Source of the DNA: Desulfoluna sp.
Lineage (GTDB): Bacteria; Desulfobacterota; Desulfobacteria; Desulfobacterales; Desulfolunaceae
DNA length: 50,766 nucleotides
Reading direction: 5' to 3'
Assembly (NCBI RefSeq): GCF_030145185.1
Contig: NZ_JAQYWB010000045.1
Span: 1 to 50,766 of the forward strand
The translations under genes were made by a program, and so were the position numbers. This document shows, in pieces, positions 4,168 through 46,849 of the stretch (its first letter is position 1; the number at the start of each line of letters is the position of its first letter). Under the pieces are notes generated by a model. It searched no databases, was not told the origin of the DNA, and saw nothing but the letters and a program-made list of their open reading frames with translations.

Positions 4168-4944
4168 GTGCACCCCATCGGATTTCTCAACCTGTCATCC
4201 CACACGGCTCTTCTTGAGCTGTGCCAAACAGACCCCTTCCTCTCCGCCCATCTTCAGCCAATCCAATCGGGCAGCACGCGGCGTATCGCACGGGGTATCC
4301 TCAGAGGATGGCTCGACGGTGGCCTGCTCCCCCTCCCCTTTGCCCATGTGCTGGCCCGATGGCAAAAAGGGATTTGTGTCCTCGCCGCCGTTCAAAATAC
4401 AGGAAGCGCCCTCGTCACCCCCGGCACCTCTCCGCTTTCCGACTTCCGGGACCTCACCGGCAAGCGGATCCTTTTTTCCTGTATCGGCTCCATGGAGTAC
4501 CTTCTGATCCACCGACTCTTCCGGGAGTGCGGCCTTGACTTAAGCCCCGAGGCCAGCCCTCATGGGGTCCTGGCCGAACAGATGGCCCCGGACCTCATCC
4601 CCGATGCCCTGCGATACAACCCGGACGGATCCATTGGAGCCGCCGTCATAGAGGAACCGGCCCTTTCCGCGATACTCGCCGAAGGAAAGTCCACTCAACT
4701 TGTCCACTGCCACGACCTCTGGCCGGAATACACCGGAGCCGTACTCGTGGTCCGCAGCACCGACGCCCCGGAAAACCGGGACCATTTGACCAAACTGGCC
4801 CAGGCCCTTCTCAATGCCGGGGCCGCCACCTCGCCTCCCCCCGGAGCGCCCACGCTGTCTCCCCCCTGCCGCGCGGACTTTCTCACCACGGGCCGTTATC
4901 TGGACAGTGAACAACTCTCCCCCATGATCGCCTCTTTCCTGTAA
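4168..4944 (+). CDS. NrtA/NasS-like binding protein without signal peptide
   Basis: A 258-residue relative of the NMT1/NrtA/CmpA substrate-binding fold, similar in layout to the C-terminal domain of the next gene. The N-terminus IGFLNLSSHTALLELC aligns with the first strand of NrtA-type binders. GGLLPLPFAHVLARW corresponds to the region that in NrtA reads as acquisition of Leu-Ala-Pro and membrane-side loops, and DLTGKRILF begins the second lobe. There is no secretion signal, so it should be cytoplasmic, as is the nitrate sensor NasS. The start is a GTG at 4168, with GGAG just upstream. No permease or ATPase genes are nearby, which argues for sensing rather than transport. The ligand is unknown. 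Confidence 0.6.
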   Translation: MHPIGFLNLSSHTALLELCQTDPFLSAHLQPIQSGSTRRIARGILRGWLDGGLLPLPFAHVLARWQKGICVLAAVQNTGSALVTPGTSPLSDFRDLTGKRILFSCIGSMEYLLIHRLFRECGLDLSPEASPHGVLAEQMAPDLIPDALRYNPDGSIGAAVIEEPALSAILAEGKSTQLVHCHDLWPEYTGAVLVVRSTDAPENRDHLTKLAQALLNAGAATSPPPGAPTLSPPCRADFLTTGRYLDSEQLSPMIASFL

Positions 4945-5163
4945 TCCGGACCTCCCGGCGCCTCTCCTTTTCCCCAGGGAACTCTCCACGCAGCATAAAC
5001 AAGATACAGCAGGACTTTATAAGGGAAAGCCATGCGCTTAACGCCCCCTTCCCCAGCAAGGAAAGTTCACAATTTCCTCACCCCCTAAAAAAAAGGGTTA
5101 AACATTCTGTGCAAAGTGACGATGGTATATAAAAAATGGTTTGGTCGGAATAAGGAGCGATAA

Positions 5164-6570
5164 ATGTCTATTAACATGGATATGAACATATTGGCAGTGG
5201 ATGACTCTGGAACCATGCGTGTGATGTTCCGGCAGTATCTCGAAAAAGCAGGCTTTAAACACATCGGCTTGGCGATAAACGGGTTGGACGCCCTGGAAAA
5301 ACTGAAGACCGAGGGCCCCTATGACCTCATCATCAGTGACTGGAACATGCCGACGATGGACGGGCTGGAGTTCCTCAAAGAGGTCCGAAAACGTAGCGAC
5401 CTGAAGGACATCCCCTTCATCATGGCAACGGCCCAGGGGGACAAAACTCAGCAGGAAATCGCCCGAAATGCGGGAAGCAACGGGCACGTTCCCAAGCCCT
5501 TCGATGAGGTGGAACTGAAGACCGCCATCGAAAAAGCATTTAACACCTATCAGGAAGCCCCCACCACCGAAAGTCACACCCCTGAAATCCGAGATGGCAA
5601 GGTGGTGATCCGTCTGGGCCACATCCAGATCACCGATCATCTGGCCCTGGGCATTCTCCAGCACTGGATCAGCCAGGGAGTGGTCACACCCAAACAATTT
5701 ATCTTGGAAACCGACTGCCTTCCCGGATGGAACCCCGTCCAGGAAAAACTTGAAAACGGAACGGTCTCGGGTGCCATGGTACTGGCTCCCATCGCCATGG
5801 ACCTGTTCGCCTACAATGTCCCCATCCGCCTCGTTCTCCTGGCCCATAAAAACGGCAGCGGGTTTGTCCGCAGTTCCCGATATGAAGAGGGGCCCTACAG
5901 CGACAAGGCCGATTTTTATAAATACAAGGTGGTCAACATCCCCCACAAGATGTCGATCCACAACATGCTGGCGCACAAATACCTCACTGGACTCGGCCTC
6001 AAGCCCGGTGTTCCAGGCCAAAAGGCTATCAATGTTCGATTTGAGGTGGTCCCGCCGGTCAAGATGCCTCCCATCATGAAAGAAGATGAATCCGTCGGCG
6101 GCTTCATCGTGGCCGAACCCATCTGTACCCGCGCCGCCTCCTCGGGCCTCGGCTCCATGGAGTTTGTCTCAGGTGGCATGTGGCCCGATCACCCCTGCTG
6201 CGTCCTGGCCCTGCGCCAGGAGCTCATCAACGCAGAACCCGATGCCGTGCAGGAGCTGACAGACCTCCTGGTCAAAGCCGGACGTTATGTCTCTGAGAAT
6301 CGCAAAGGCGCGGCTGAAATCGCCCTGAAATTCCTCGATCCCGAAGGGAAAATGGGTCTCTCTCTCCCCGTTCTCCTCCAGGTCCTCAGCCAGAAGAACG
6401 GCATCACCATGGACGATCTGTATCCCTCCATCGAAGATTTAGACAAAATTCAGACCTACATGTACCACGACATGGGAATCGGCAAGCTCATCGACCTGAA
6501 CAGTTTTGCAGACCTGCGCTTTGCGGCCAAGGCCACAGGGCGAGACGAAGCCGCTTGCGGCGCTGCCTGA
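5164..6570 (+). CDS. Response regulator receiver fused to an NrtA/NasS-like ligand-binding domain
   Basis: A 468-residue two-part protein. Residues 1-125 are a CheY-type receiver with the acidic pair in LAVDDSG, the phospho-acceptor Asp in LIISDWNMP, the conserved Thr/Ala region in FIMATAQ and the Lys in VPKPFD. From about residue 145 (VVIRLGHIQITDHLALGILQ) to about 400 it resembles NrtA/CmpA/NasS-type binding proteins, including GTVSGAMVLAPIAMDLFAYN, GGFIVAEPICTRAASSG and GGMWPDHPCCVLALRQE. There is no signal peptide, membrane segment or DNA-binding domain. The start at 5164 has AAGGAG six bases upstream. NasS, a cytoplasmic NrtA homologue acting with the receiver-like antiterminator NasT, is a precedent for such domains as sensors. 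Coupling of phosphorylation and ligand binding in one chain is an inference. The ligand is unknown. Confidence 0.82.
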   Translation: MSINMDMNILAVDDSGTMRVMFRQYLEKAGFKHIGLAINGLDALEKLKTEGPYDLIISDWNMPTMDGLEFLKEVRKRSDLKDIPFIMATAQGDKTQQEIARNAGSNGHVPKPFDEVELKTAIEKAFNTYQEAPTTESHTPEIRDGKVVIRLGHIQITDHLALGILQHWISQGVVTPKQFILETDCLPGWNPVQEKLENGTVSGAMVLAPIAMDLFAYNVPIRLVLLAHKNGSGFVRSSRYEEGPYSDKADFYKYKVVNIPHKMSIHNMLAHKYLTGLGLKPGVPGQKAINVRFEVVPPVKMPPIMKEDESVGGFIVAEPICTRAASSGLGSMEFVSGGMWPDHPCCVLALRQELINAEPDAVQELTDLLVKAGRYVSENRKGAAEIALKFLDPEGKMGLSLPVLLQVLSQKNGITMDDLYPSIEDLDKIQTYMYHDMGIGKLIDLNSFADLRFAAKATGRDEAACGAA

Positions 6571-6604
6571 TTCATCGCTGGCACGCCCGAAAATAAAAAA
6601 TAAT

Positions 6605-6636
6605 AAGGCCTCGCATCTGTCATGCGAGGCCTTCTC
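6605..6636 (+). terminator. Rho-independent terminator after the receiver/NrtA-like gene
   Basis: A 12-bp perfect stem (AAGGCCTCGCAT / ATGCGAGGCCTT) with a 5-base loop, 34 bases beyond the stop codon. The T-tract after it is short. Confidence 0.75.
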
Positions 6637-6653
6637 ATCGATTCACCCTCAAG

Positions 6654-6703
6654 AACGGGACATCAGCCGTGGATGCACACCACGGAAGACGTCCCGTTTT
6701 TAT
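6654..6703 (+). terminator. Second nested hairpin with T-run between convergent genes
   Basis: Outer stem AACGGGAC / GTCCCGTT and inner stem CCGTGG / CCACGG, followed by TTTTT. The downstream arm abuts the stop codon of the convergent receiver gene at 6700. It could terminate rightward read-through. Confidence 0.6.
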
Positions 6704-7104
6704 GTCTGGATCGTTCCACACCCTGCGCCACCCTCACGCCCCCCTCGCCCTTTCGAGGGCCACCCGGCCAGAAGCCGCACGCTGGCAACCAGGTCTTTCA
6801 TGGAGACCGGTTTCTCCATTACGGCGTCAAAATGTCGATCATGGGCCCGCCAGGGCGTTCCCGAAACTCCAATCACAGGAACCATCCCCTTGGGGGATCG
6901 GCGAATGTACTCGGCCACCCCATTGCCATCCATCCCGCCCATCACCAGATCGGTAATCACCAGAGCATAATCGCCGTTATCAAACATGCGAATCCCTTTT
7001 TCGCCACTGTCCGCCGTATGAACCCTATATCCCTGACGTTTCAACATCTGACGATAAAGATCCAGAAGGATCTGATCATCATCAATCACGAGAAGCGATA
7101 CCAT
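6700..7104 (-). CDS. Single-domain response regulator (CheY-like)
   Basis: A stand-alone receiver of about 134 residues. LLVIDDDQILL holds the acidic pocket, ALVITDLVMGGMDG the phospho-acceptor Asp, VIGVSGT the conserved Ser/Thr region and VMEKPVS the conserved Lys. After the receiver there is only a glycine-rich tail (SKGRGGREGGAGCG), so it has no output domain and would act by protein contact or phosphotransfer. The ATG at 7104 is preferred because AAGGGG lies five bases upstream; a GTG at 7110 in the same frame is possible. It converges on the receiver/NrtA-like gene, and two hairpins separate them. The partner kinase is not in the window. Confidence 0.88.
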   Translation of the reverse strand: MVSLLVIDDDQILLDLYRQMLKRQGYRVHTADSGEKGIRMFDNGDYALVITDLVMGGMDGNGVAEYIRRSPKGMVPVIGVSGTPWRAHDRHFDAVMEKPVSMKDLVASVRLLAGWPSKGRGGREGGAGCGTIQT

Positions 7105-8681: not shown

Positions 8682-10019
8682 CTACCTCAGCACCCCCCTT
8701 AATGAGTGCGGCAGTCCTGTTTCAATATAAACCGGAACCACTTTCCCCACAAGGTTTCCATCGGTCGGCTTGCCAGCCTCGGTGAAGTTCACCACGCGGT
8801 TGCAGGAAGAACGACCCGTCCACTGAAACACACCCTTGACCTCTTTGTGCCCATCCACAAGCACCTCGACGGTTGTCCCTGCATAGGAGATGTTGCGTTT
8901 CTCCGAAAGCTCCGTTTCAAGATCCAAAAGCTTGGCCAGGCGACGGGTCTTGTCCTCTTCCGAAACCTTGCCTTCGAACTTGGCCGCTGGCGCATGGGGA
9001 CGATCGGAATATTTAAAGGCAAAGATGCCGGAAAAGCCCACCTCACGAACCAAATCCAGGGTCGCGTCAAAATCGGCCTCCGTCTCTCCGGGGAACCCCA
9101 CGATCATATCCGAGGTGAGGGCAATATCCGGACGCACCGCCTTCAGGTTCTCAATGCGCTGCATGTAATCTTCCCGGGTATACTTACGTTTCATCTTCTT
9201 GAGCACCGCGTTGGAGCCGGACTGCACGGGAAGGTGAATATGGTTGCAGAGCTTGGGCAGATCCCGATACGCCGCCACCAATCCCGGAGAGAGATCTTTG
9301 GGGTGAGAGGTCGCAAAACGGATACGGGCCAGCCCCTCGACCTCACTGACACGGCGGAGAAGCTCAGGAAAATCGCAGAGCCCCTCTTTTTTCCCGTACG
9401 AGTTGACATTCTGGCCCAACAGCGTCACTTCCCGGGCGCCCCTCTCCACGAGATCTCTCACCTCCTGGACAATAGCATCGGGATCACGGCTCTCCTCGCG
9501 TCCACGAACGTAAGGGACGATGCAATACGAGCAAAAGTTATCGCAACCCCGCATGATGGTCACAAACCGGGAAACCTCTACCTCGGCGTCGAGCTCAGGA
9601 ATCGGGGTCGCATCGGTGATGCCCATGGTCATTTCGACATCCACGACAGGAATGCGATCGTATTCGAATTTCTCCACCATGGCCGCAAGGCGTGCATAGG
9701 CCCGCGTTCCGAAGACCAGATCCACGTAAGGCATGCGCCTGAGAATAGCGGACCCCTCCTGCTGGGCCACACAGCCCCCGATGGCCACGATAAGCTCCGG
9801 GTTCTTCTTTTTCAGCGCCCGCATCCGGCCCAGGAAACTAAAGGCCTTCTCCTCGGCTTTCTTTCGAACGGTACAGGTATTGACGATCACCAGATCGGCA
9901 TCCTCCACCTCATCCACGGGGATGTACCCCAGGGGTCGCAGAACCTTCTTGAACATCTCTGAATCATAGACATTCATCTGGCATCCAATAGTGTATATGT
10001 ATACGCACTTCTTATTCAT
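8682..10019 (-). CDS. miaB: tRNA-2-methylthio-N6-isopentenyladenosine(37) synthase (methylthiotransferase)
   Basis: A 445-residue radical SAM methylthiotransferase that adds a methylthio group to i6A37 of tRNAs reading UNN codons. The N-terminal UPF0004 domain has three cluster cysteines (YTIGCQMNVYDSE, VNTCTVRKKAEEKA, GGCVAQQEG). The radical SAM cluster is CDNFCSYCIVPYVRGRE, and a TRAM RNA-binding domain closes the protein (VEVLVDGHKEVKGVFQWTGR). The ATG at 10019 is chosen as start because MNKKCVYIYTIGCQMN is the family start and AAAGGTAAAG precedes it; 26 upstream codons in frame look non-coding. It is followed by the DUF151 gene and preceded by the DUF4911 gene on the same strand. Confidence 0.95.
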   Translation of the reverse strand: MNKKCVYIYTIGCQMNVYDSEMFKKVLRPLGYIPVDEVEDADLVIVNTCTVRKKAEEKAFSFLGRMRALKKKNPELIVAIGGCVAQQEGSAILRRMPYVDLVFGTRAYARLAAMVEKFEYDRIPVVDVEMTMGITDATPIPELDAEVEVSRFVTIMRGCDNFCSYCIVPYVRGREESRDPDAIVQEVRDLVERGAREVTLLGQNVNSYGKKEGLCDFPELLRRVSEVEGLARIRFATSHPKDLSPGLVAAYRDLPKLCNHIHLPVQSGSNAVLKKMKRKYTREDYMQRIENLKAVRPDIALTSDMIVGFPGETEADFDATLDLVREVGFSGIFAFKYSDRPHAPAAKFEGKVSEEDKTRRLAKLLDLETELSEKRNISYAGTTVEVLVDGHKEVKGVFQWTGRSSCNRVVNFTEAGKPTDGNLVGKVVPVYIETGLPHSLRGVLR

Positions 10020-10166
10020 CAGGTTTACTTTACCTTTTATAAAAGATGGCCCCACAAAAAATCGAACACGCGCGATACGATTGCAAAACCATGTCAACGG
10101 TGACTTCTTTACGAACGCATCCTAAAATGCCCCTGCGGGGCCTCTTCAATACATCGCCTCGCCGGC

Positions 10167-10421
10167 TCAAACGAGGCCGTCAATCTCCGGGGCCACGATC
10201 TCTTCCATGGAAACCGTCCCCTCAAGACTCTCGAGCACTCTATCTACCTCTTCCTCGCACCCCGGCGCAATCCGAAGCACAATAATGTCACGATCCCTGT
10301 TGACGGTGGTCACCACCAACAGGTTATCCAACGCTTCAAAGGTGTACTTTACAAAGACGATATCCTCACGCCTGAGTTTGAAAAATCTTTCAATGCACCC
10401 CACACACGCTCCTTGTTTCAT
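10167..10421 (-). CDS. DUF4911 domain protein
   Basis: A short protein of 84 residues matching the DUF4911 pattern as I know it from Deltaproteobacteria: an N-terminal strand region (IVFVKYTFEALDNLLVVTTV) and a C-terminal segment IVLRIAPGCEEEVDRVLESL. The N-terminus has two cysteines (CVGC) that could bind metal. The ATG at 10421 has TAAGGAG about seven bases upstream; the longer open frame upstream is rejected because it lacks coding character. Its function is unknown. It sits directly upstream of miaB, 147 bases away, which suggests a shared transcript. Confidence 0.75.
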   Translation of the reverse strand: MKQGACVGCIERFFKLRREDIVFVKYTFEALDNLLVVTTVNRDRDIIVLRIAPGCEEEVDRVLESLEGTVSMEEIVAPEIDGLV

Positions 10422-10663: not shown

Positions 10664-12385
10664 ATGCATGCAAATTGGACCACAACCGACATTGACGAGC
10701 CTCAAGTAAACGCCCTGGCAGCAGCCCTTGGCATCTCCCCTGTCACGGCCACCCTCCTGGTGGCCAGGGGGCACGGCACCCCGGAGGCCGCACGCACCTT
10801 CCTCTCTCCGTCCCTTGCCGGGCTTCGCCCTCCCCACCGGCTCTTCGGCATGGACACCGCCGTGGAGAGACTGATTCGAGCCATCACCCACGACGAAATG
10901 ATCTTCATCTGCGGTGACTACGACGCCGACGGGATCACCTCGACCGCCCTTCTTGTCACCTTTCTTCAAAGCACCGGCGCCAAGGTGGGCTGGCACCTCC
11001 CCCACCGCGTCTCCGACGGGTATGGATTTCATGCCAGCCAGGTCACCGAGCACGCACACCCGGCCGGGGCAAAGGTCATCATCACCGTGGACTGCGGCTC
11101 CACCTCCTTTGAGGCCGTGGAAGCTGCCAAATCCTGCGGCATCGATGTCATCATCACCGACCACCACACCACAGGAGACACCCTGCCGGAGGCCCTGGCC
11201 ATCATCAACCCCAAGCAACCAGCCTGCGAATCGGGGATGCAGGATCTGGCCGGCGTGGGGGTCGCCTTTTACCTGGCCGTGGCCTTGCGCAAGGGACTCC
11301 GTGATATCAACCACTGGGGGAAAAAGGGTGAACCCAATCTGAAAGCCCTTTGCGACATGGTCGCCCTGGGCACCATCGCCGATATCGTCCCCCTCACCGG
11401 AGAAAACCGCATCCTCACCCGCGCTGGCCTCGACATGATCAACCAGAAGACCAGACCCGGAATCGTATCCCTTCTCACCGCATCGAAGGTAACCGCCCAG
11501 GAGGTGGGTGCCGAAGATATCGCCTTTCGCCTGGCCCCTCGCATTAATGCGGCCGGGCGAATGGACAACGCCCAGGTAGGGCTCGACCTGATGCTGGCGA
11601 CCAGCCAGAAACAGGCCGCACCCATCGCCAAAGAGCTCTGCCGCCTGAACACCCAGAGACAGGACACCGAAGCCCAAATTTTCGAGGAAATCGTCGACTA
11701 CATTAACGAGAGCCCCGGCCTCCTCGACAGAAAATCCTTTGTTCTGGCCAAAAATGGCTGGCACCCTGGAGTCTTGGGTATTGTTGCCTCCCGGGTGGTC
11801 CGGGAATACGGCAAACCGGCCTTTGTCATCTCCGTCGACGCAAGAGGCCTCGGCAAAGGGTCCGGCCGGAGCATCCCCGGCGTGGACCTGTACCAGGCCC
11901 TCAAATCCACCGCCGACACCCTCGAACGCTTCGGAGGTCACCGCCAGGCCGCAGGCCTTCAGCTGCAGGCAAGCCGCATCGTCGAGTTCCACAGACGCCT
12001 GGAAGCCCACCTGTCCGAGAGCACCACAGACGACGACTACATCACCACCCTCCCCGCCGATGCCCGCCTCCCTCTTTCCGAGATCACCCCGGCCCTCATC
12101 GACGAATTGGAGACCCTGGCCCCCTTTGGAGAGGGAAACCGTGAGCCCCTGTTCATCGCAGAAAATATCCCCGTACTCTCCTCCTCGGAGGTCGGGCGGG
12201 GGCACCGGCGGTATCTTCTGGACACCTCCGGAAACAGCCACCTCAACAAATGCATGGCCATCCGCTTTAATCACCCCGGTGGCCCCCCGGAAAAGCGAAT
12301 CTCCCGTTGTCTCTATACTCTCCGCTGGAACCGGTGGAATGGCAGCAAGAGCCCCCAACTCCAAATTCACGACATGGAAGTCTAA
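10664..12385 (+). CDS. recJ: Single-stranded-DNA-specific exonuclease RecJ
   Basis: A 573-residue 5'-3' single-strand exonuclease of the DHH superfamily, acting in recombination and mismatch or base-excision repair. Motifs run in order: CGDYDADGITSTALL (residues 83-97), VDCGS (about 142), the signature TDHHTTGD (DHH at 166-168), a middle helical region with FRLAPRINAAGRMD, and the DHHA1 domain with GSGRSIPGVDLYQAL and FGGHRQAAGLQL. The C-terminal OB-like domain ends at IHDMEV. Family length is typical. It is divergent from the DUF4911 gene, so the 240-base gap should contain promoters for both. The ribosome binding site is weak. Confidence 0.96.
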   Translation: MHANWTTTDIDEPQVNALAAALGISPVTATLLVARGHGTPEAARTFLSPSLAGLRPPHRLFGMDTAVERLIRAITHDEMIFICGDYDADGITSTALLVTFLQSTGAKVGWHLPHRVSDGYGFHASQVTEHAHPAGAKVIITVDCGSTSFEAVEAAKSCGIDVIITDHHTTGDTLPEALAIINPKQPACESGMQDLAGVGVAFYLAVALRKGLRDINHWGKKGEPNLKALCDMVALGTIADIVPLTGENRILTRAGLDMINQKTRPGIVSLLTASKVTAQEVGAEDIAFRLAPRINAAGRMDNAQVGLDLMLATSQKQAAPIAKELCRLNTQRQDTEAQIFEEIVDYINESPGLLDRKSFVLAKNGWHPGVLGIVASRVVREYGKPAFVISVDARGLGKGSGRSIPGVDLYQALKSTADTLERFGGHRQAAGLQLQASRIVEFHRRLEAHLSESTTDDDYITTLPADARLPLSEITPALIDELETLAPFGEGNREPLFIAENIPVLSSSEVGRGHRRYLLDTSGNSHLNKCMAIRFNHPGGPPEKRISRCLYTLRWNRWNGSKSPQLQIHDMEV

Positions 12386-12608
12386 CCTCCACATTTCACA
12401 GGGAACAAGAGCCTGAAAGCGGGGGCGGATCGCAGGCAAAGCGAGGCCCAGGCCCCCACCCCAAGCGAGCGTTCTCACCCGGCCGACGGACAGGCAGATT
12501 TCCTCCGTCCCTAACCGCCTGAAGCCGCACTGTTTTCAGGCTTTGCGCGCCTTTGCCGCCATTGAAAACAGCCCGACAATTTCCTTGATTTCTTCAGGGA
12601 GGAAAGCT
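12386..12608. other. Intergenic region with a 9-bp inverted repeat
   Basis: Holds CTGTTTTCA (12530-12538) and TGAAAACAG (12563-12571), separated by 24 bases, just upstream of a strong ribosome binding site at 12596. It could be a weak terminator for recJ or an operator; no T-run follows. Confidence 0.35.
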
Positions 12609-12755
12609 ATGATCCTTTTGCCGAATCCAGAGACGCTGAAGCCTTTCGCGCCCTTGGACCAAGCCCGCCTGGATGTCTTCATGGCTGGCTGCGATCAACA
12701 CGCGTCGTCGCCGGGAGGGCCTTTTAAAAGTCTCACAGGCCCTGGACATCTGTAA
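12609..12755 (+). CDS. Possible small protein (48 aa)
   Basis: A 48-codon frame starting at the ATG at 12609, which has an excellent AGGGAGG site seven bases upstream. The peptide starts MILLPNPETLKPFAPLDQAR and ends in a Gly/Pro-rich stretch. No family was recognised and the C-terminus looks low in information. The strong initiation site is the only positive evidence. It could also be the decayed start of a longer lost gene. It precedes the next gene (12853) on the same strand. Confidence 0.3.
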   Translation: MILLPNPETLKPFAPLDQARLDVFMAGCDQHASSPGGPFKSLTGPGHL

Positions 12756-12852
12756 CAACGTAACTTTATGATGGTTCCGCGCCCGGGCCGCTCTGTCGTC
12801 GCCCGCGACGTCAATGCCATACCGGATCCATCAACTATAGACAGGAGGGTGA

Positions 12853-29866: not shown

Positions 29867-30281
29867 GGCCAGAGAGCGGCGAGACCCACCCCACTGCCAC
29901 GATACGTTTCGCGGCAGTGGGGGTGAAAGAGCCGTGGAATGAAGCCCTCACAATATGGAAAAACCGGCAGCCCTGCCTTGAAGCCCTCCGTTCCCAGCCT
30001 GGCTGGCTTTCCCCCTTCCCCAAAAAAGACGTCCCCTCGATAACCCTCACCCCAATCACTTGTCTTTAATCATGACTATATTTTCATGTAAATATTTGAC
30101 ATCCGATATAAAACGCTGTAGACATACAGGCAATTAAAAGTCAGAAGACTTAAAGGAAAACGAGTAGAAAAAATACATTTTATCTAAACCGGCCATGAAG
30201 GCGTAACCTCTATTGAAACAAGGAGGGAGAAGCATCATGGTTTTTTTGTCCAGCTTCTCTCCAGATTTTCAGGAGCATCCT
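29867..30281. other. Upstream region of the nik operon
   Basis: About 415 bases between the repeat element and nikA. It holds an AT-rich segment (30060-30180) with a consensus -35 (see the promoter entry). A GTATGA/TCATAC-type NikR palindrome was looked for and not found. Confidence 0.4.
30096..30124 (+). promoter_or_regulatory. Possible nik operon promoter
   Basis: TTGACA at 30096-30101 is a perfect -35 box. A 17-base spacer leads to TAGACA, a poor -10 (three of six), so this may be an activated promoter or a chance match. It lies about 160 bases before the nikA start. Confidence 0.35.
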
Positions 30282-31877
30282 ATGAAGCTGTATCGACACC
30301 CATTATCTGTTTTATGCCTCTGCCTTGCCATCAGCCTCTTCACCCTGAGTCCTCAGGCTTTTGCTGAATCAGGGACCCTTGTCTACTCCTGGTCCTCCAA
30401 TGTCGGACCGTTAAACCCCCACGCCTATTCTCCCAACCAGATGTTTGCCCAGGCCATGGTCTACGAGCCCCTGGTGCGTTATGGCATGGGCGGAAAAATC
30501 CTCCCCTGCCTGGCGGAATCCTGGGAAACAACACCCGACAGGCGAGAGTATACCTTCCACCTGCGAAAAGGCGTCCAGTTCTCTGACGGCACGCCCTTTG
30601 ACGCAGAGGCGGTTAAAAAAAATCACGACACCCTGATTGCAAACGCAAAATCACATAACTGGCTCGAACTCGCCCGTCAGATTCAAGAGACGGTGGTCCT
30701 GGATGAGCACACGGTCAAAGTGGTTCTTAAAGAGTCCTACTACCCTTTTTTACAGGACCTTGCGCTGATTCGCCCGTTCCGATACCTGAGCCCGTCTGCT
30801 TTCCCCGAGAGCGGAAACACCAAAGAAGGGATCAAGGCAGCCATCGGAACCGGCCCCTGGGTCCTGACCCAGACCCGGCTCGGGCAAGATGATACCTTCG
30901 AAAGAAATGACCGTTACTGGGGGCCCCGTCCCGATCTGGCCAAAATTATCGTCAAGGTGCTTCCCGACCCCAACACGCGGGCCATGGCCTTTGAAACCGG
31001 TGAGATTGATCTGATCTACGGGGACGGACAAATAAGCCTGGACACCTTTAATCGATTCCGCAACAACCCCGCCTACACCACCCGCATGTCCCAGCCCCTG
31101 GCGTCGCGCTGTATCGTCCTGAACTCCGGACGTGGCCCCACAAGGGAGCTGGCGGTCCGAAAAGCCATTCAACATGCGGTAAACAAAGAGGCGCTGATAC
31201 GAGGGGTCTTTTTAAACACAGAGATCAAGGCCGATACCCTTTACGCCTCGAACACACCATACTGCGACCTGAATTTGCCGCCCTATGAATACAGCCTGTC
31301 TAAGGCTAAAAAATTGCTGGACCTTGCCGGCTGGAAAACGACGGACAAAGCGTCGGTGAGAACCCGAGACGGAAAAGAGCTGACGATGGATCTCTGCTTT
31401 ATCGGAAACAATGCGGTGATGAAATCAATCTCCGAAGTCTTCCAGGCCGATTTGCAAAAAATCGGGATCCGGGTGGTGTTAAAAGGAGAAGAGACCGACT
31501 CATATTATAAACGTCAGCATCAGGGTGAGTTTGATCTGATTTTTAATGATTCATGGGGACCTCCCTATGACCCCCACTCTTTTATGAGCTCCTGGCGTGC
31601 CCCCTCCCATGCGGACTACCAGGCCCAGTCCGGACTGCCCATGAAAAAGCAGATCGATGAGGCCATCGGCGAGGTGCTGGTAAGCCGGGATGAATTCAAA
31701 CGCCAGGCCCTTTACAGAGAGATTCTCGGCACCCTGCACGCCCAGGCTGTTTACCTGCCCATCAGCTATACAACGGGCCTGATGGTTCACCGGGCCGATG
31801 TTTCAGAGATGGCCTACGGGGCGACCAAGTATGAAATCCCCTTCGAAACCATCGTTCAAAAGCAGCGTTCATATTAA
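30282..31877 (+). CDS. nikA: Nickel ABC transporter substrate-binding protein
   Basis: A periplasmic binding protein of about 531 residues, closely matching NikA over its whole length. The signal peptide is MKLYRHPLSVLCLCLAISLF with cleavage after AFA. Nearly invariant blocks follow: NVGPLNPHAYSPNQMFAQAM, AVKVVLKESYYPFLQDLALI-type sequence, IGTGPWVLTQT, DPNTRAMAFETGEIDLIYG, PSHADYQAQSGLPMK and AVYLPISYTTG. The Arg in RPFRY, which contacts the metal chelate in E. coli NikA, is kept. The region around the E. coli nickel-ligand His reads IFNDSWG, with Asn where His is expected. CAGGAG precedes the 30282 ATG; a further in-frame ATG at 30237 has an even stronger site (AAGGAGGG) and would add 15 residues before the signal. 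Confidence 0.92.
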   Translation: MKLYRHPLSVLCLCLAISLFTLSPQAFAESGTLVYSWSSNVGPLNPHAYSPNQMFAQAMVYEPLVRYGMGGKILPCLAESWETTPDRREYTFHLRKGVQFSDGTPFDAEAVKKNHDTLIANAKSHNWLELARQIQETVVLDEHTVKVVLKESYYPFLQDLALIRPFRYLSPSAFPESGNTKEGIKAAIGTGPWVLTQTRLGQDDTFERNDRYWGPRPDLAKIIVKVLPDPNTRAMAFETGEIDLIYGDGQISLDTFNRFRNNPAYTTRMSQPLASRCIVLNSGRGPTRELAVRKAIQHAVNKEALIRGVFLNTEIKADTLYASNTPYCDLNLPPYEYSLSKAKKLLDLAGWKTTDKASVRTRDGKELTMDLCFIGNNAVMKSISEVFQADLQKIGIRVVLKGEETDSYYKRQHQGEFDLIFNDSWGPPYDPHSFMSSWRAPSHADYQAQSGLPMKKQIDEAIGEVLVSRDEFKRQALYREILGTLHAQAVYLPISYTTGLMVHRADVSEMAYGATKYEIPFETIVQKQRSY

Positions 31878-31886
31878 GGAGTGGCA

Positions 31887-32831
31887 ATGATCAAGTTTAT
31901 AGCCCGACGGCTTCTGCTTTTAATCCCGCTGCTGTTCGTGATCTCCGTGCTCATTTTCGTCATCCTTCGGCTCGGTGAAAATGATCCGGCCATGTCCTAC
32001 CTGCGGCTCTCCCAGATTCCGGCAACCGATGAAGCCCTGGCCCTGGCCCGGGAAGAACTCGGCTTGAACCGGCCTCTGGTGGTTCAGTATTCGGACTGGG
32101 CCTGGAAGGTTCTTCATCTTGATTTCGGGCGCTCCTATGTGACCGGAGCGCCGGTATCCGACCGACTGCTCTTTTACCTGCCCAACACCCTCTACTTAGG
32201 CACGGTCTCCCTGGGCATCGTCCTGGTTCTCAGCTTTCCCCTCGGCATTCTGTCCGCCCTGAAAAAGGACCGCTGGCCCGATCACCTGACTCGGGCGATC
32301 GCCTTTGCCGGTGTCTCCACCCCAAGTTTCTGGCTGGGGTTTCTTCTGGTCTATGTGTTTGCCGTGAAGCTGAAGTGGCTCCCGCCCATGGGCATGGGCG
32401 GCCCCCGGCATGTCATTATGCCGGCGTTCACCCTGGCCTTTATGTCCCTTTGCATCAACATGCGGTTGATCCGCTCCAGTATGCTGGAGCAAATGAACAC
32501 CCGATCGGTCCTCTACGCCCGAAGCCGGGGGGTCAAAGAAAAATGGATCACCGGATATCATGTGCTTAAAAATTCCATGATCCCGGTGGTCACCGCCATG
32601 GGGATGCATATCGGAGAGATGCTGGGTGGTGCGGTGGTGGTTGAAATTATTTTTGCCTGGCCCGGCGTGGGGAGGTATGCCGTTTCGGCCATCTACAACC
32701 GGGACTTCCCGGTGATGCAGTGTTTCATCCTGATGATGACCCTCTTATTCGTTCTTTGCAATCTGGCGGTGGACATCCTCTATGCCTGGCTTGATCCACG
32801 TATTCGTTATGGAACAGGAGCTGAACAATGA
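31887..32831 (+). CDS. nikB: Nickel ABC transporter permease NikB
   Basis: A 314-residue inner-membrane permease with six predicted membrane segments, the first being LLLLIPLLFVISVLIFVIL. The EAA-type cytoplasmic loop that docks the ATPase is in the second half (YARSRGVKEKWITGYHVLKN). VVVEIIFAWPGVGRYAV is a typical dipeptide/nickel-family segment. It starts at ATG 31887 with AAGGAG five bases upstream (GTG 31881 is possible), ten bases after nikA. Its stop overlaps the nikC start (ATGA). Confidence 0.92.
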   Translation: MIKFIARRLLLLIPLLFVISVLIFVILRLGENDPAMSYLRLSQIPATDEALALAREELGLNRPLVVQYSDWAWKVLHLDFGRSYVTGAPVSDRLLFYLPNTLYLGTVSLGIVLVLSFPLGILSALKKDRWPDHLTRAIAFAGVSTPSFWLGFLLVYVFAVKLKWLPPMGMGGPRHVIMPAFTLAFMSLCINMRLIRSSMLEQMNTRSVLYARSRGVKEKWITGYHVLKNSMIPVVTAMGMHIGEMLGGAVVVEIIFAWPGVGRYAVSAIYNRDFPVMQCFILMMTLLFVLCNLAVDILYAWLDPRIRYGTGAEQ

Positions 32832-33664
32832 CATTCATTCAAAATATGGCAAAAAAAAAGCTGCTCTGGTTTGCCATCCCAACGATCATGATGCTCCTCG
32901 GCATGGCTCTTTTCGCCCCATGGGTCGCCCCCCACAACCCCAACGAGGTCAACCTGGAGCTCCGGCTGATGCCCTCTTCCTCCTCGCACCTGCTGGGCAC
33001 CGATCACCTGGGCCGGGATACGCTGTCTCGATTGATCTGGGGAGCCCGCACCTCCCTGGGCTCTGTCTTTGTCATTGTCACCCTGGTGCTTGTGTTCAGC
33101 CTCTTCGTCGGCAGCATCGCCGGCTACCGGGGAGGTGCGCTGGACTCCTTCCTGATGCGGGTCTGTGAAATATTTTTAACCTTCCCCACCTTTATCCTGG
33201 CCATGTTTCTCATCGGCGTCCTGGGGATGGGCATGATCAACGTGATTCTGGCTATTTTCCTGACCCACTGGGCCTGGTACGCCAGAATCATCCGCGGGCT
33301 GGTCCTCAGCCTGAAAAACAGGGACTATATCCTGGCGTCAAAGGTCTGCGGGACCCCGGCATGGAAAATCATTTTCCGGCACCTGACGCCCCCTGTATTG
33401 GCCCAGATTATCGTTCTGGCGACCCTGGATATCGGCCACATGATGCTGCATGTTTCCGGGCTCTCTTTTCTGGGCCTGGGCATTCAGGCCCCCACCCCGG
33501 AGTGGGGCGTCATGATCAGCGATGCCCGCCAGTATATCTGGACCCAGCCGGAGTTGATTCTCTACCCGGGGCTCATGATTTTTATCGGGGTCCTGGCATT
33601 TAATATTCCGGGGGATATGATTCGGGACAGCCTGGATCCAACCCTTGTGGAAGGAGACCTCTGA
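32828..33664 (+). CDS. nikC: Nickel ABC transporter permease NikC
   Basis: The second permease, 278 residues, of the DppC/OppC/NikC type. The N-terminal membrane segment is LWFAIPTIMMLLGMALFAPW, followed by the periplasmic stretch with HLLGTDHLGRDTLSRLIWGA, the hallmark of the family. The EAA-like loop is ASKVCGTPAWKIIFRHL. The gene begins by ATGA overlap with nikB and ends one base before the nikD start, so the products should be made in step. Confidence 0.93.
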   Translation: MTFIQNMAKKKLLWFAIPTIMMLLGMALFAPWVAPHNPNEVNLELRLMPSSSSHLLGTDHLGRDTLSRLIWGARTSLGSVFVIVTLVLVFSLFVGSIAGYRGGALDSFLMRVCEIFLTFPTFILAMFLIGVLGMGMINVILAIFLTHWAWYARIIRGLVLSLKNRDYILASKVCGTPAWKIIFRHLTPPVLAQIIVLATLDIGHMMLHVSGLSFLGLGIQAPTPEWGVMISDARQYIWTQPELILYPGLMIFIGVLAFNIPGDMIRDSLDPTLVEGDL

Positions 33665-33665
33665 G

Positions 33666-34562
33666 ATGCCATCCAATGAAATCCTCTCTGTTCACGACCT
33701 CTCCCTGGCGCTCTGCCGGAATCAATCCGTCATCCCCCTGGTGAGCAACCTCAGTTTTTCCCTTCGACCCAACCGGGTGATGGGTCTGATTGGGGAAAGC
33801 GGGTGCGGAAAATCACTCACCTGCCTTGCCATCATGGGGTTGCTGCCAGAAAATATTCAACCCTCCGGCGGAGAGATCCGGGTCAACGGCAGGCAACTGA
33901 CGGACATGACCCCTTCGGAGAAAACAGACTTCCGGGGCAAAACAGCCGCGATCATCCTGCAGAATCCCATGAGTTGTTTTGATTCCGTGTTTAAGATTCG
34001 CCACCATTTTTATGAAACCCTCACGTCCCACGGAGAGAAGAACCCGGCGAGACGGCTTGACGTCTCCCGCCATGCGCTCCTGGACGTGGGATTTGAACAC
34101 CCCGATGAGATTCTGGATCTCTATCCGTTTCAGATGAGCGGGGGCATGCTTCAGAGAATCATGATCGCCATGGCCGTCATGATGAACGTCTCCCTTCTCA
34201 TCGCAGACGAACCCACCACAGACCTGGATGTGGTGTCCCAGGCCAGAATCCTGGACCTGCTGGCACAGATGCGGGACAGACACGGCATGGCCATCTTACT
34301 GGTCACCCATGATCTAAGTGTGGTGGCAAGGCTGGCTGATGACCTGACGGTGATGAAAGAGGGCCGCGTGGTGGAATCCGGCCCCCTGGCCACACTCTTC
34401 CATGCCGGCCAACACCCGTATACCCGAGCCCTCATCACCGCCCATTTAAGCATGTACGATGACCGCCTGCAGCAGCTGCTGGGCCCAGCCGCCCCCAAAA
34501 ACGCCGCCCAAGCCATCCGGCAAGGAGAAACGCATGAATGTGTTGGAACTGAAGAAAATTGA
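33666..34562 (+). CDS. nikD: Nickel ABC transporter ATP-binding protein NikD
   Basis: A 298-residue ABC ATPase. Walker A is GESGCGKS, the Q-loop IILQNPMS, the signature [11 protein letters not shown], Walker [13 protein letters not shown] and the switch His VTHDLS. The C-terminal extension with HPYTRALI is the oligopeptide/nickel-type regulatory segment. The start at 33666 has AAGGAG upstream, overlapping the end of nikC. The last 29 bases overlap nikE in another frame. Confidence 0.93.
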
Positions 34563-35364
34563 CAAATCCTATCGACGTGGGGGCTTCTGGGGAACCCAAG
34601 AAAAAAGGGAGGTGTTGAAAGGTGTGGACCTTGCCCTGCAGATGGGCACCTGCGTCGGGCTTCTCGGTCGGAGCGGGTCGGGCAAGAGCACACTGGGAAG
34701 AATCGCACTGAACTTAGAGCCCCCCAATGCCGGGGAAGTCTTGTATCATGGCCAGGCGGTTCGCTCTTTAAGCCCGAAACACTATAAAGATTTTCGCCGC
34801 AATGTGCAGGTGGTCTTCCAGAATCCCCTGGGCTCGGTGAACCCGAGGTTTACAGCCCAACAGATTGTGGCCGAGCCCCTTGAAAATTTTGAATCCCTGT
34901 CCGCTGCCCAGACCAAAACCCGGGTAAACGACCTCCTGGAGCGTGTGGGGTTGTCCGCCTCCGACCTGTGCAAATATCCCCACCAGTTCAGCGGAGGAGA
35001 GCTGCAACGGGTGTGCATTGCCCGGGCCATTGCCCTGAACCCCAAGCTGATCATCCTGGATGAGGCGGTCAGCAGCCTGGACATGCTGGTCCAATTAAAA
35101 ATTTTAGATCTGCTGGCTCAGCTGAAAAACGAGCTGGGCACCACCTATCTCTTCATCTCCCACGATATCCGGGTGCTGCTGAAAATAGCGGACCGGCTGC
35201 TGGTGATGCATGAAGGACAGCTGGTGGAACAGGCAGACAGCATGGACCATTTAAACGCGTTCACCCATGCAGCCTTTTTGGAGTTGATCCATTCCGTCCT
35301 CCCGCCCCTACCCATGGCGATACCGGATCCCCAGGATATAACCAGACGCGTCGATGCCAATTAA
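34534..35364 (+). CDS. nikE: Nickel ABC transporter ATP-binding protein NikE
   Basis: The second ATPase, 276 residues. Walker A is GRSGSGKST, the Q-loop [13 protein letters not shown], the signature [14 protein letters not shown], Walker [13 protein letters not shown] and the switch His FISHDIRV. The start at 34534 is chosen because AAGGAG lies six bases upstream and because the [14 protein letters not shown]-terminus is typical; the open frame extends upstream inside nikD. It is the last gene of the operon; a palindromic repeat at 35435 follows and may aid termination. Confidence 0.93.
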
Positions 35365-39163: not shown

Positions 39164-40111
39164 AGAGCCAGCAACCCGTTCTACCACAAGCCTGAATCCC
39201 AGCCCACTGCCGGAAGAATCCTTTGCAAAAGGGAATCGACGCGTGCAGCGAACACTCCAGGCATCCAAGTTATAGCTGCCACCGCGCGCAACCAGATCAG
39301 GAGAGTCTCCCTCTGTTACCGGATTTTTCCTGTCATGACGTTTATAGGCATCCTCGCTATATGTATCCCGGCACCATTCCCAGACATTCCCACTCATATC
39401 AAAGAGCCCAAAACCATTGGGTTTTTTAGTACAGACCGCCTGGGTTCGACCACTGTTGTTTTCGCCATACCAGGCCACCGAATCCGGCTCACTGCTTCCG
39501 GAATAGATATCCTCGTTTCCGCCGCTTCGTGCCGCATATTCCCACTCCGCTTCGCTGGGAAGACAAAAGGTAAAAGCCCCTTTATTTTTTTCTTCAAGAG
39601 CCTCAATAAACATACAAATATCACCAAATGAAATCTGCTCAACGGGGTGATTGGAACCCGATTTAAAGCACGACGGATTGTCACCCATCACGGCTTCCCA
39701 GTCGCCCTGAGTGACGAGAGTTTTTCCAAGGTAAAACCCATCAAGTTCGACCTCATGAACCGGAGCTTCGTTGTCTACACCATCACCGGTTGCATCACCC
39801 ATCAAAAACGTTCCACCTGGAATAAAAATAAATTCCATGCCAGCTACAGATTCCCTAAGTTCATGTAAAGGCTCAGTCCTGTCCGCAGGTGACGGATTAT
39901 TTCCCAGGTGACACCCATTCTTATGTTCCGGAAGCCGGCAAAGACATTCGGAACACAGAATTCTCGTATGACATTCAGGACACAATCGCCAGTTTGACTT
40001 TATTTCAATCCCGCACCCTGAGCAGACAAACCCGCTGAGGTTCACTTCACACCCCGGGCAAATGGTCCAATGTGCTTTCAAGTGTTCGCCACAAAATTTA
40101 CAAATATCCAT
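39161..40111 (-). CDS. Zinc-ribbon protein with SUMF1/formylglycine-generating-enzyme-like domain
   Basis: 316 residues, cytoplasmic. The first 70 residues contain four CxxC pairs plus extra Cys (CKFCGEHLKAHWTICPGC, CSGCGIEI, CPEC, CSECLC), i.e. two or three zinc ribbons. From about residue 90 the FGE-sulfatase domain runs: MEFIFIPGGTFLMGD, PVHEVELDGFYLGKTLVTQG, LPSEAEWEYAARSGG, FGLFDMSGNVWEWCRD, RGGSYNLD and GLGFRLVVE. True formylglycine synthases need a pair of active-site cysteines; this is more like the broad SUMF1-like family linked to signalling or binding. Start is ATG 40111. The TAG stop comes from a TA-flanked repeat. Confidence 0.85.
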   Translation of the reverse strand: MDICKFCGEHLKAHWTICPGCEVNLSGFVCSGCGIEIKSNWRLCPECHTRILCSECLCRLPEHKNGCHLGNNPSPADRTEPLHELRESVAGMEFIFIPGGTFLMGDATGDGVDNEAPVHEVELDGFYLGKTLVTQGDWEAVMGDNPSCFKSGSNHPVEQISFGDICMFIEALEEKNKGAFTFCLPSEAEWEYAARSGGNEDIYSGSSEPDSVAWYGENNSGRTQAVCTKKPNGFGLFDMSGNVWEWCRDTYSEDAYKRHDRKNPVTEGDSPDLVARGGSYNLDAWSVRCTRRFPFAKDSSGSGLGFRLVVERVAGS

Positions 40112-40164
40112 ATTATTCCAGTATTTATTATATATATTTTTGTACAGTTTGCTCAAAAAGCAAT

Positions 40165-40293
40165 GCCTCCGGCGGCAAGGTGAGCCACCTTGAAAGCAGG
40201 TTGCTAATGCGTTGCCCCCTTGTCACGGCATTGCCTACCGATACCGGTTAAATGGTCCGCCACAGACGCAGGCGGACTTGTCACGCCGGAGGC
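40165..40293. repeat. GCCTCCGGCGGC-type palindromic repeat, copy B
   Basis: Begins GCCTCCGGCGGCAAGGTG and GCCACCTTGAAAGC as in copy A, then an extra insertion of about 56 bases, and closes with ACGCCGGAGGC. The flanking TTCCCCGGATCA is shared with copy A. Confidence 0.8.
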
Positions 40294-40410
40294 TTTTGCG
40301 TAGGCGGATTCCCCGGATCAAATCACATTCGCCTTTGAAAGGAAATTTAATCAAGAATAATTTTAAAACCTGTTTGTTAAACCCGTCTTTATAAAATCAG
40401 GCAAACGCTT

Positions 40411-40453
40411 AACCACCGGCAGGACCGTCGGAGGCATAAGCTGAATAGTTACC
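40411..40453. repeat. GCCTCCGGCGGC-type repeat, inverted terminus (copy E)
   Basis: Read on the minus strand it starts GGTAACTATTCAGCTTATGC and continues CTCCGACGGTCCTGCCGG, matching copy C at 45310 with few changes. The 15-base end is an exact match to that of copy C. Confidence 0.7.
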
Positions 40454-40474
40454 AAAAACTTTAAATATTTTTTG

Positions 40475-40872
40475 AACCACGAAAAGCACGAAAGACACGA
40501 AAAAAAGAACCATTGGCATAAAATAAAATTTGATTACCTTCTATTCACAGCCCTACCCAGGGAATATACCCCACTTGCAACATGTTGAAATAGTAGGGCT
40601 ATAGACCCACTGCGGCTGTCAGAGCTATGGAGTCCATGAAGGCTTACGACGTCAGCCACCCACTCATGGCTTTTTTATAATTGATGGAGCGCAGCGACTC
40701 CTCGAACGAAGAACCAAGAACCAAGCACGAAGAACGCTTTTAACAAACCACCCTGTTGGAAACATCAATGTCCTTGATGGTGGCTGAGAATGGGTGGTAA
40801 TCAGAAAATAAAATCTCTTTGGGGGCGGCTGAATGCTCCCCTGTTCGTGTTTTTCGTGTGGTTCGTGGTTAA
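40475..40872. repeat. Inverted pair of CACGAAA-rich motifs
   Basis: GAACCACGAAAAGCACGAAA at the left and its approximate complement, GTGTTTTTCGTGTGGTTCGT, at the right, about 340 bases apart. Such motifs are common in intergenic DNA of environmental bacteria; here they frame non-coding DNA. Confidence 0.45.
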
Positions 40873-41086
40873 ACTGCCCTTTGCTTGATAGCCAAACCAT
40901 CGGCACAAACTATAAGCGGACGCATAATGCAAAAAGACAAGCGCATGGCGTCTGTCCCCTGGTCCCCCTGATCCCTGTCCATAGACCCTTTTCTAATAAT
41001 TTCAAGAACAATGCATCATTCCCACAAGGGATAGAACACATAAACTTGTTGATAATTACAACCCAATTTCGTAAGATTTCAGATCT

Positions 41087-41398
41087 GTGAAGATACATGT
41101 GTTGCCCTCTGACCGAAGTCGCCAGATAGGTGATGCCCACCACGACACCTGATGGGGTCCCGTTGCGACTTAAGATTTGGCAGGCTTTTAAACAGATAAC
41201 CTTCCACTCTGCAATCTACTCTGAATAAAGGCCTTTCTTACGGCAAGACTCCAATGGTTCGGTTTCATTCAGTGCAGCCGTCTCCAGCACGGCGGTTAGC
41301 CTCTCTTCCGAACTCCATGTGTTGGGATATTGCCTGGCCCAGGCACAGCTACCTCCTGAGATAAAACCTGTTTTCGCCATATGCACAACGTTCCACAC
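41087..41398 (-). pseudogene. Degenerate IS3-family transposase (orfA and orfB fragments)
   Basis: Two fragments in the correct order on the minus strand. At 41216-41398 the frame ends ETAALNETEPLESCRKKGLYSE, matching the orfA helix-turn-helix segment of IS3-family elements (ETAALNEAELAEYCRRKGLYPE in related proteins, from memory), then stops. At about 41087-41177 the sequence ITYLATSVRGQHMYLH matches the start of the orfB integrase core, with the upstream PHQVSWW in another frame, showing a frameshift. Most of the element is missing, including both ends. It is certainly inactive. Confidence 0.6.
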
Positions 41399-41517
41399 AC
41401 AATCCCTCAGTCATTTACAAGTAAAATAACCGACAGGCAGAAATAATGGTGATTATGACCGTTATGTCATGTACCCGGATTTTTGAAATCATCCATTCAT
41501 ATTGAGGTGGTTAGAGT

Positions 41518-43950: not shown

Positions 43951-44033
43951 TGCGGGAGACTGCGTCGTTTCAAATGATCCCTTGCTTTGCAAGATGGCTC
44001 CCGGCGGGGTGCCGGATGATACGTGAATGCATA

Positions 44034-44184
44034 TAGCCCGGATATTTCATGAGAAAACGATTTTTCTGCAGCAATAAGGATTATTACAGGCTGTTCCTTT
44101 GAAAAATTTGGATATTTGTAAAATACAAAATGTAATTCACGTTTTCTACTCGATGTTCTCACCCTTCGGGAAATAATCGGGATA
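44034..44184. repeat. TA-flanked short repeat element, copy 2 (151 bp)
   Basis: Starts TAGCCCGGATATTTCATGAG and ends TTCGGGAAATAATCGGGATA. It includes ACAAAATGTAATTCACGTTT and TCTCACCCTTCGGG, found in other copies. It is in the opposite orientation to copy 1. No coding sequence. It lies between two secreted-protein genes. Confidence 0.8.
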
Positions 44185-44227
44185 GTGTACAACACTTAAA
44201 TAAAATTGTGATTTTTGGAGGCAAAAC

Positions 44228-45289: not shown

Positions 45290-45309
45290 AGTATGTTTCC
45301 TGCAATGAA

Positions 45310-45474
45310 GGTAACTATTCAGCTTGTGCCTCCGGCGGCCCTGCCGAGGTCTAAACTTTTAAAAAGTTGAAGAAATAGGTTCAAGCCAATCTCAATCAAA
45401 GGCGCATTAGCAAAACCGCTTTCGAGGTGGCACCTCGCCGCCGGAGGCCGCTTTTCATGAGCTGAATAATGACC
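45310..45474. repeat. GCCTCCGGCGGC-type element with 15-bp inverted ends, copy C (165 bp)
   Basis: Left end GGTAACTATTCAGCT, right end AGCTGAATAATGACC (inverted, two mismatches), with GCCTCCGGCGG at 45328 and CCGCCGGAGGC at 45447 inside. It is the most complete copy of this family and defines its ends. No open frame inside. Confidence 0.8.
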
Positions 45475-45588
45475 CATGAAGAAGGCAATCATACTATTTG
45501 TCCGATAAGCATGCCGGCAGAAATACGTATAGCCAACCGTATCAAGGGTATACGCCACATGCGCTCGACGCAGGTTTAGTCTGCTTAT

Positions 45589-46846: not shown

Positions 46847-46849
46847 CCC

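Follow-up and report, generated by a model that had tools for sequence, protein, structure and literature searches.

A CheY-type receiver fused to a predicted NrtA/SsuA-fold ligand-binding domain in Desulfoluna, a CheW-less member of a proposed CheV-like chemosensory family

Chemotaxis inputs are mostly viewed as receptors, and few soluble CheW-coupled sensors have been characterised; PMC10653840 calls CheWS of Treponema denticola, in which CheW is fused to a CheR-like S-adenosylmethionine (SAM) sensor, the first characterised CheW-fused sensor, and counts 30 undescribed CheW architectures in Fig. S10. CheV is described in PMC4742279 as CheW plus a receiver and nothing more. In the NasS/NasT pair, as portrayed in PMC3795266, NasT is a receiver (REC) joined to ANTAR, and NasS keeps the nitrate ligands. 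Here we describe a gene in which a receiver is joined to an NrtA/SsuA-type binding domain (REC-NMT1), carried by a 50,766-nucleotide stretch of Desulfoluna DNA (the window, which is contig C108 of a 5.8-Mb genome). The closest named relatives by this fusion are Desulfoluna spongiiphila, D. butyratoxydans, and D. limicola, with NMT1 domains 90 to 92% identical. The longest common architecture of the family is CheY-type receiver, NrtA/SsuA-fold ligand-binding domain, and CheW. We consider it an evenly balanced proposition that this is a soluble, CheV-like chemosensory family with a built-in importer-type sensor, of which the window copy is a CheW-less, CheY-like derivative. The direct grounds are the domains, the predicted fold, their conservation, the presence of CheW in many relatives and not here, the gene contexts, and co-occurrence with CheA.

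The fusion protein (Table 1) has matches to Response_reg (PF00072) at residues 9 to 123 (89.8 bits) and to NMT1_2 (PF13379) at residues 148 to 386 (91.5 bits against a curated cut-off of 24.7). No further Pfam domain was found at an E-value of 0.001, ANTAR and CheW included, and a custom CheW model likewise found no CheW. The initial annotation had proposed a complete CheY receiver joined to a signal-less NrtA-type domain, and both halves of that proposal hold. The residues of a phosphorylatable receiver are all present (the acidic pair D13 and D14, the phospho-acceptor D59, T89, and K111), and D14, D59, T89, and K111 are invariant across 56 aligned homologues. The top NCBIfam model for the receiver is chemotaxis CheY (101.3 bits), followed by PhoB (67.3 bits), which makes CheY its nearest receiver family, at a score below the CheY whole-protein cut-off of 189. 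Judged from the sequence, the receiver, starting at residue 9, leaves no room for the export signal of a periplasmic binding protein, and an ordinary protein of that kind is thereby ruled out.

In the binding domain, alignments identify the motifs ITDH, GWN, APIAMDL, AHKNGS, IPHKMSIH, VAEP, HPCC, and FLDP. An AlphaFold2 model of the fusion, built with 56 sequences (mean predicted local distance difference test score [pLDDT], 90.7; predicted template modelling score [pTM], 0.86), matches CheY structures in its N-terminal part (Z about 22 to 23). Its C-terminal part matches the Staphylococcus aureus binding protein 3un6 (Z 36.6, root mean square deviation 2.0 Å, 287 residues), CmpA (Z 35.0), NrtA (Z 34.9), and CmpC/NrtC chains (Z 32 to 34); Foldseek agrees on the NrtA/CmpA-type binding proteins and on CheY. 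Profile and predicted structure thus place the C-terminal domain with NrtA/CmpA-type binding proteins and not in an unrelated fold, an outcome that the initial annotation had named as fatal to its interpretation. The fusion is 82 to 89% identical to those of five other genomes of the genus, with a ratio of nonsynonymous to synonymous substitution rates (dN/dS) of 0.08 to 0.09, which rules out a chance or broken open reading frame (ORF); the homologues in kin and phylum genomes speak against chance as well.

Full-length homologues are present in 18 of 58 kin genomes; of 395 phylum genomes, 21 contain the family, and the host is included in both counts. The second count is a lower bound; four candidates were scored per genome, and additional copies of either form may have escaped detection. 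All 20 other positive phylum genomes carry a C-terminal CheW in the same frame (REC-NMT1-CheW; 21 loci by the custom CheW model), although at one of these loci (G134) the frame is incomplete and no receiver was found. Named bacterial contigs hold at least 565 relatives, of which the best 80, a set biased to near kin, were analysed: 55 are REC-NMT1 (the short form, about 455 to 500 aa, with one ORF called at 583), 23 are REC-NMT1-CheW (638 to 704 aa), and two (L101 and L136) lack an intact fusion ORF. Five of these 80, all metagenome-assembled genomes (MAGs), have records titled Spirochaetales, Spirochaetes, Ignavibacteria, Bacteroidetes, and Melioribacteraceae. When Pfam was run on 10 chosen relatives, a C-terminal CheW was found in seven, the rest being two CheW-less fusions and one importer binding protein. 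The absence of an output domain that had been noted earlier is therefore correct for the window gene and not for many relatives, in which the third domain is CheW; it probably arose secondarily. The predicted structure of a CheW-bearing protein of Desulfurivibrio (L130; pLDDT 83.8) matches CheW of the Escherichia coli core signalling unit (8c5v, TMt 0.89), CheY (47% identity), and 3un6, and its receiver scores 109.8 bits with the NCBIfam CheY model and 73.1 with the next receiver model.

Some family members depart from these two forms. Locus L056 (8793-12407, minus strand) encodes a tandem REC-NMT1-REC-NMT1 protein of 1205 aa with a divergent CheW, which scores 41 bits with Pfam and was not found by the custom model on the matching locus L030; seven family matches occur in one genome (G045), and both cases are lineage-specific expansions. 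At L025 (1154-3586, plus strand), REC-NMT1 continues into another kind of C-terminal tail, about 350 aa long, without CheW and with no Pfam match, the end of which looks, by eye, like a degenerate PP2C/SpoIIE-type phosphatase.

In a tree of NMT1 domains from 63 chosen rows, rooted on importer binding proteins, the receiver-fused domains form one clade (99/95). Within it, all CheW-less proteins bar L028 and L025, two from Spirochaetes included, form one clade (100/100) nested among CheW-bearing lineages, and a quick tree of 109 rows (without L027, L030, and L167) agrees on the CheW-less clade, with three label changes. L027 was left out of alignments A1 and A2, and L015 out of A2, for in-frame stops (the L015 range was trimmed in A1); alignment A3 comprises the window sequence and 55 named loci out of the 78 intact ones. 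Because the window's branch nests among CheW-bearing lineages, CheW was most likely lost in that branch, whether or not the first ancestor had it.

The fusion has a pathway in which to act, because the host carries 33 receptor signalling domains, flagellin, two CheA genes (contigs C29 and C5), CheW on both of these contigs, and CheB and CheR on C29. The standalone CheW on C29 scores 80.6 bits with the fused-CheW model, compared with 139 to 189 bits for the fused CheW domains of named loci and 222 bits for the standalone CheW of L090, a score that neither shows nor excludes that Desulfoluna has split the CheW domain off into its own gene. CheA (PF02895) is present in 18/18 positive and 27/40 negative kin genomes (Fisher P = 0.005) and in 20/20 further positive genomes, making 38/38 positives overall; counted once per genus, the figures are 13/13 and 27/40 (P = 0.023). 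In L090 (Desulfobacula sp. LigF6_bin14), genes for CheW, CheA, CheD, CheX, CheB, and CheD precede a CheW-less fusion, which is followed by a standalone NMT1 protein, CheR, a receiver, and a second CheA. The fusion of L124 (Desulfobacter latus) is flanked on both sides by CheA-like genes, that of L077 is preceded by genes for a CheY-like receiver and for a standalone NMT1 protein, and at L055 the order is lone receiver, CheA, DUF169, and REC-NMT1-CheW.

Many Desulfobacteraceae loci have a different arrangement, in which the genes for a standalone NMT1 protein, an ATP-binding cassette (ABC) ATPase, a Tat-signal binding protein, and a permease precede the short-form fusion. Counted within 8 kb with our own seeds and thresholds, a permease is present at 34 of the 55 short-form loci, an ATPase at 29, and CheD at 19, in most of which it lies beside the importer operon; another NMT1 protein is present at 33 and, by clustering, the importer binding protein at 31. 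The importer-linked arrangement is seen at many loci of Desulfobacter, Desulfobacula, Desulfotignum, Desulfospira, and Desulfamplus; the twin-arginine signal of the binding protein has an NCBIfam match in L116. The NCBIfam models that fit the importer best are SaoA for the ATPase, SaoP for the permease, and the SsuA family for the binding protein, each with a score under its cut-off. The initial annotation reported no permease or ATPase genes near the fusion, and this is borne out in the window, where one ATPase and one permease seed match only two ATPases at 33.6 to 35.4 kb, which belong to an Opp/Dpp-type set (the window ORFs were not all scanned with Pfam); it also held that transporter genes linked in relatives would tell against its interpretation, and the permease and ATPase counts reveal that linkage. 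We do not take the linkage to mean that the fusion is a transport protein, because in 48 of the 55 short-form ORFs no more than 15 residues separate the called start from the receiver, too few for an export signal; we read it as meaning that the importer's substrate, or a related one, is also sensed inside the cell. At L079 (3701-7417, plus strand) an SsuABC/NrtABC-type importer operon is accompanied by an extra signal-less NMT1 protein. The named CheW-bearing fusions are often found with rhodanese, HDOD, and HSP90-like genes (clusters in 10, 9, and 10 of 23 loci).

The sequences offer some clues to the ligand. The Trp and His columns common to NrtC are retained in the family, and the Lys of NrtC/CmpC (PKKV or PGKV), a residue that binds nitrate in NrtA, is Cys here (HPCCV). 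The alignment also has a conserved Cys-Cys and several conserved His residues. Because the lysine is missing and these Cys-Cys and His motifs are present, nitrate is an unlikely ligand. The nearest protein in both fold and sequence, 3un6 (24% identity), shares IPHxxSxH and CC with the fusion and was crystallised with zinc, according to its PDB title. The linked importer's own binding protein has HPCC and H-x-NGS in common with the fusion, which suggests a related ligand inside (the fusion) and outside (the importer binding protein).

A plausible mechanism is that the long form would be anchored by its CheW domain, as CheV is, in the array of CheA, CheW, and receptors, while the NrtA/SsuA-fold domain would sample a cytoplasmic small molecule and the receiver would take phosphate from CheA as feedback. 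The window protein would then sense the ligand and serve CheA as a CheY-like partner or phosphate sink. When the small molecule binds to the NrtA-type domain, the receiver could accept, hold, or pass on phosphate differently, such that CheA output would be tuned to the internal level of an imported solute, with motility control as the outcome. The steps that we infer are the interaction with CheA, the phosphorylation, the binding of a ligand and the direction of its effect, and the loss of CheW. A more specific proposal, which we make tentatively and regard as somewhat less probable than the family assignment itself, is of a chemotaxis input that bypasses receptors: an intracellular importer-type binding protein, held on the CheA array via CheW, would read the cytoplasmic solute pool with CheY giving feedback, the window's branch would have shed CheW to give a ligand-sensing CheY, and the solute read would be of the kind brought in by the linked importers of some lineages.

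Several observations weigh against a chemosensory role. The window protein itself lacks CheW, no che gene was found beside the fusion in the window, and CheW-bearing copies are present in only 7 of the 18 positive near-kin genomes (G024, G028, G030, G041, G045, G046, and G052, by Pfam or the custom model). Because che genes were found by seeds within 8 kb of only 1 of the 23 named CheW-bearing loci, the chemotaxis link at those loci rests on the CheW domain itself. The CheD linkage of the short form comes almost wholly from one clade and thus represents few independent events, and the neighbour counts have full flanks for 27 of the 55 short-form and 10 of the 23 CheW-bearing loci. The CheA association is uncorrected for kinship, and CheA is common anyway. 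The CheW-less L025 and L028 branch deep in the tree, and the first ancestor may therefore have lacked CheW; the nesting of the CheW-less clade depends on where the tree is rooted, here a long outgroup branch that the tree program flagged, which makes it likely rather than shown. Long branches were also flagged for the 258-aa neighbour of the fusion and for several standalone rows, and the root and the standalone part of the tree are unsure.

Control of the fusion gene by sigma-28 is only suggestive. The upstream block (TAAA, 15 bases, GACGATGG; Table 1) recurs at the same spacing in 6/6 sequences of the genus, with different final bases in L069, and TAAA, 15 bases, and TCCGATAA lie upstream of the flagellin gene of the same genome. 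The fusion gene is among seven matches in a genome-wide search with the sigma-28 pattern, and a reversed-pattern control gave none. However, the block scores 9 of 12, no better than controls, of which 126 of 576 genes reach or exceed that score, a further point against the chemosensory interpretation; a score of 10 or more was reached by none of 54 short-form loci tested.

The importer linkage raises the question as to whether the fusion, in which the receiver would provide a second input, controls the neighbouring SsuABC/NrtABC-type importer. A comparable role is probable for the NrtA-like regulatory domain that NrtC/CmpC carry in the cytoplasm, and NrtC/CmpC chains are among the nearest folds; the recurrent gene order and the motifs common to the fusion and the importer binding protein point the same way. 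Nonetheless, we consider this explanation unlikely: no importer was found by seeds or clusters near the fusion in the window, in the five other loci of the genus, or in L072, L077, L090, and L124, and neither an importer nor a further NMT1 protein was found by seeds at any of the 23 named CheW-bearing loci, although an ABC ATPase lies just downstream of two unnamed ones, L051 (by Pfam) and L054 (by similarity only). CheW and CheD are moreover ill-suited to a pure transport regulator.

Less probable still is the parallel drawn in the initial annotation, a two-part regulator of the NasS/NasT type merged into a single regulator of gene expression. The combination of a signal-less NrtA-like domain with a receiver has its precedent in that pair (PMC3795266), and the underlying observation of an NrtA-fold ligand domain with a phosphorylatable receiver stands. 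The parallel itself does not: Pfam finds no ANTAR and no DNA- or RNA-binding domain in the fusion, the receiver is of CheY type, many relatives carry CheW, and the NrtC/CmpC lysine is replaced by cysteine, which together rule it out as the principal interpretation. The sole regulator-like neighbour seen is a weak MerR-type protein beside a standalone NMT1 gene in L090 and on host contig C132. Finally, the NMT1-like domain might be a phosphorylation-gated cytoplasmic enzyme of the same fold, like Thi5 or MqnD, and not a sensor; we regard this as very improbable. Thi5 (Z about 23) and MqnD (Z 22.3) are among the structural matches, and the conserved Cys-Cys and His residues could be read in this way, but 3un6, CmpA, and NrtA score far higher, and a CheW fusion such as that of the relatives would be difficult to explain for an enzyme. 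A soluble chemosensory family thus remains our preferred interpretation.

Table 1. Features of the fusion locus, with one example of neighbours in a CheW-bearing relative (coordinates are those of the window unless a locus is named)
Feature	Position	Strand	Basis or remark
REC-NMT1 fusion gene	5164..6570	+	One open frame, 468 aa; without signal peptide, without CheW
CheY-type receiver domain, residues 9-123	5188..5532	+	Pfam, NCBIfam, CheY structure matches
NrtA/SsuA-type binding domain, residues 145-457	5596..6534	+	Pfam, alignments, 3un6 fold match
Upstream block TTAAA..GACGATGG	5098..5125	+	Possible sigma-28-like promoter, by eye
Terminator-like hairpin between fusion and convergent lone receiver	6605..6633	-	Weak: 6 such sites in region against 5.2 expected from shuffled sequence
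Divergent signal-less NMT1-like protein, 258 aa, GTG start	4168..4944	+	Weak Pfam matches
Lone single-domain receiver, convergent	6700..7104 (ATG at 7104)	-	PF00072, 65.7 bits
Rhodanese, HDOD, and HSP90-like neighbours, example	L125:6461-7336, 9519-10376, 10889-12784		Clustering

The genes on either side of the fusion are also as first described. The upstream neighbour had been called signal-less and NrtA-like, which is supported, if weakly, by PF09084 (24.0 bits, cut-off 20.5) and PF13379 (23.5 bits, under the cut-off of 24.7). It has lost TDH, GWN, IPH, and HPCC, and was grouped with the standalone NMT1 proteins by its position and the stretch preceding the VAEP motif; it sits on a very long tree branch (W258, 8.1). 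Compared with its counterparts in five congeners it has dN/dS of 0.16 to 0.27, faster than the fusion yet still constrained, which speaks for a working gene under purifying selection. In a sister lineage (L072) its place is taken by an intact 312-aa standalone NMT1 protein, and an intact standalone paralogue (a 348-aa frame) is found elsewhere in the host genome, on contig C132. Next to standalone NMT1 genes (L090:9287-10600, Desulfobacula; L172:8852-10195, host genome) is a gene for a protein of about 440 aa, weakly MerR-like at its N terminus, which is possibly their partner regulator. The lone receiver downstream does converge on the fusion; CheY is absent from its 25 best NCBIfam models, and by clustering it is present in 4/5 other loci of the genus and 0/50 remaining short-form loci.

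Elsewhere in the window, positions 30213-35364 (plus strand) carry Opp/Dpp-type ABC importer genes (SBP_bac_5, two permeases, and two ATPases) unrelated to the fusion. Over positions 40000-50766 the G+C content drops from about 0.55 to 0.41 and the third-position G+C of ORFs from about 0.65 to 0.3 to 0.5; genes for HEAT-repeat and DUF4261 proteins are included, and the region is possibly foreign DNA.

Among described systems, CheV resembles the CheW-bearing relatives in being a soluble protein that joins a CheY-like receiver to CheW (PMC4742279 and PMC12691637), although the domain order is reversed and the family has a roughly 310-residue ligand-binding domain between the two. CheWS, in the text seen of PMC10653840, is likewise a soluble CheW-fused sensor, one that detects a small molecule of the cytoplasm at the array; its sensor, however, is CheR-like and binds SAM, and no receiver is mentioned for it there. 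REC-NMT1-CheW may be among the undescribed architectures in Fig. S10 of that paper; in the literature listings searched, which did not extend to subscription journals or to that figure, we found no description of it. NasS/NasT shares with the fusion a cytoplasmic NrtA-like sensor working with a receiver, but consists of two proteins with an ANTAR output and nitrate ligands kept (PMC3795266), whereas the fusion is one protein, has no ANTAR, and has one expected ligand residue replaced. The C-terminal regulatory domain of NrtC/CmpC (PDB 8wm7, 9uai, and 9uak) is similarly an NrtA-like domain on a cytoplasmic protein, there fused to an ABC ATPase and not to a receiver or CheW; 3un6 is, by its PDB title, an importer binding component and not a signalling protein. 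The permease and ATPase expected with a periplasmic importer binding protein were not found by seeds near the fusion in the window and are present in relatives.

If the chemosensory interpretation is correct, a family spread over Desulfobacterota and MAGs labelled Spirochaetes, Bacteroidetes, and Ignavibacteria would provide a simple means of steering by solutes already taken up. The CheW-less branch then represents a natural experiment, having retained receiver and ligand domain, both of them under purifying selection that is strong as measured in Desulfoluna. The window protein has no CheW and so fits neither with CheV, which joins CheW to a receiver (as its relatives do, in the other order), nor with CheWS, which fuses CheW to a small-molecule sensor, even though CheW is present in all 20 other positive phylum genomes. 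We would place it, with our confidence equally divided, in a CheW-less branch of the family that works as those two proteins do.

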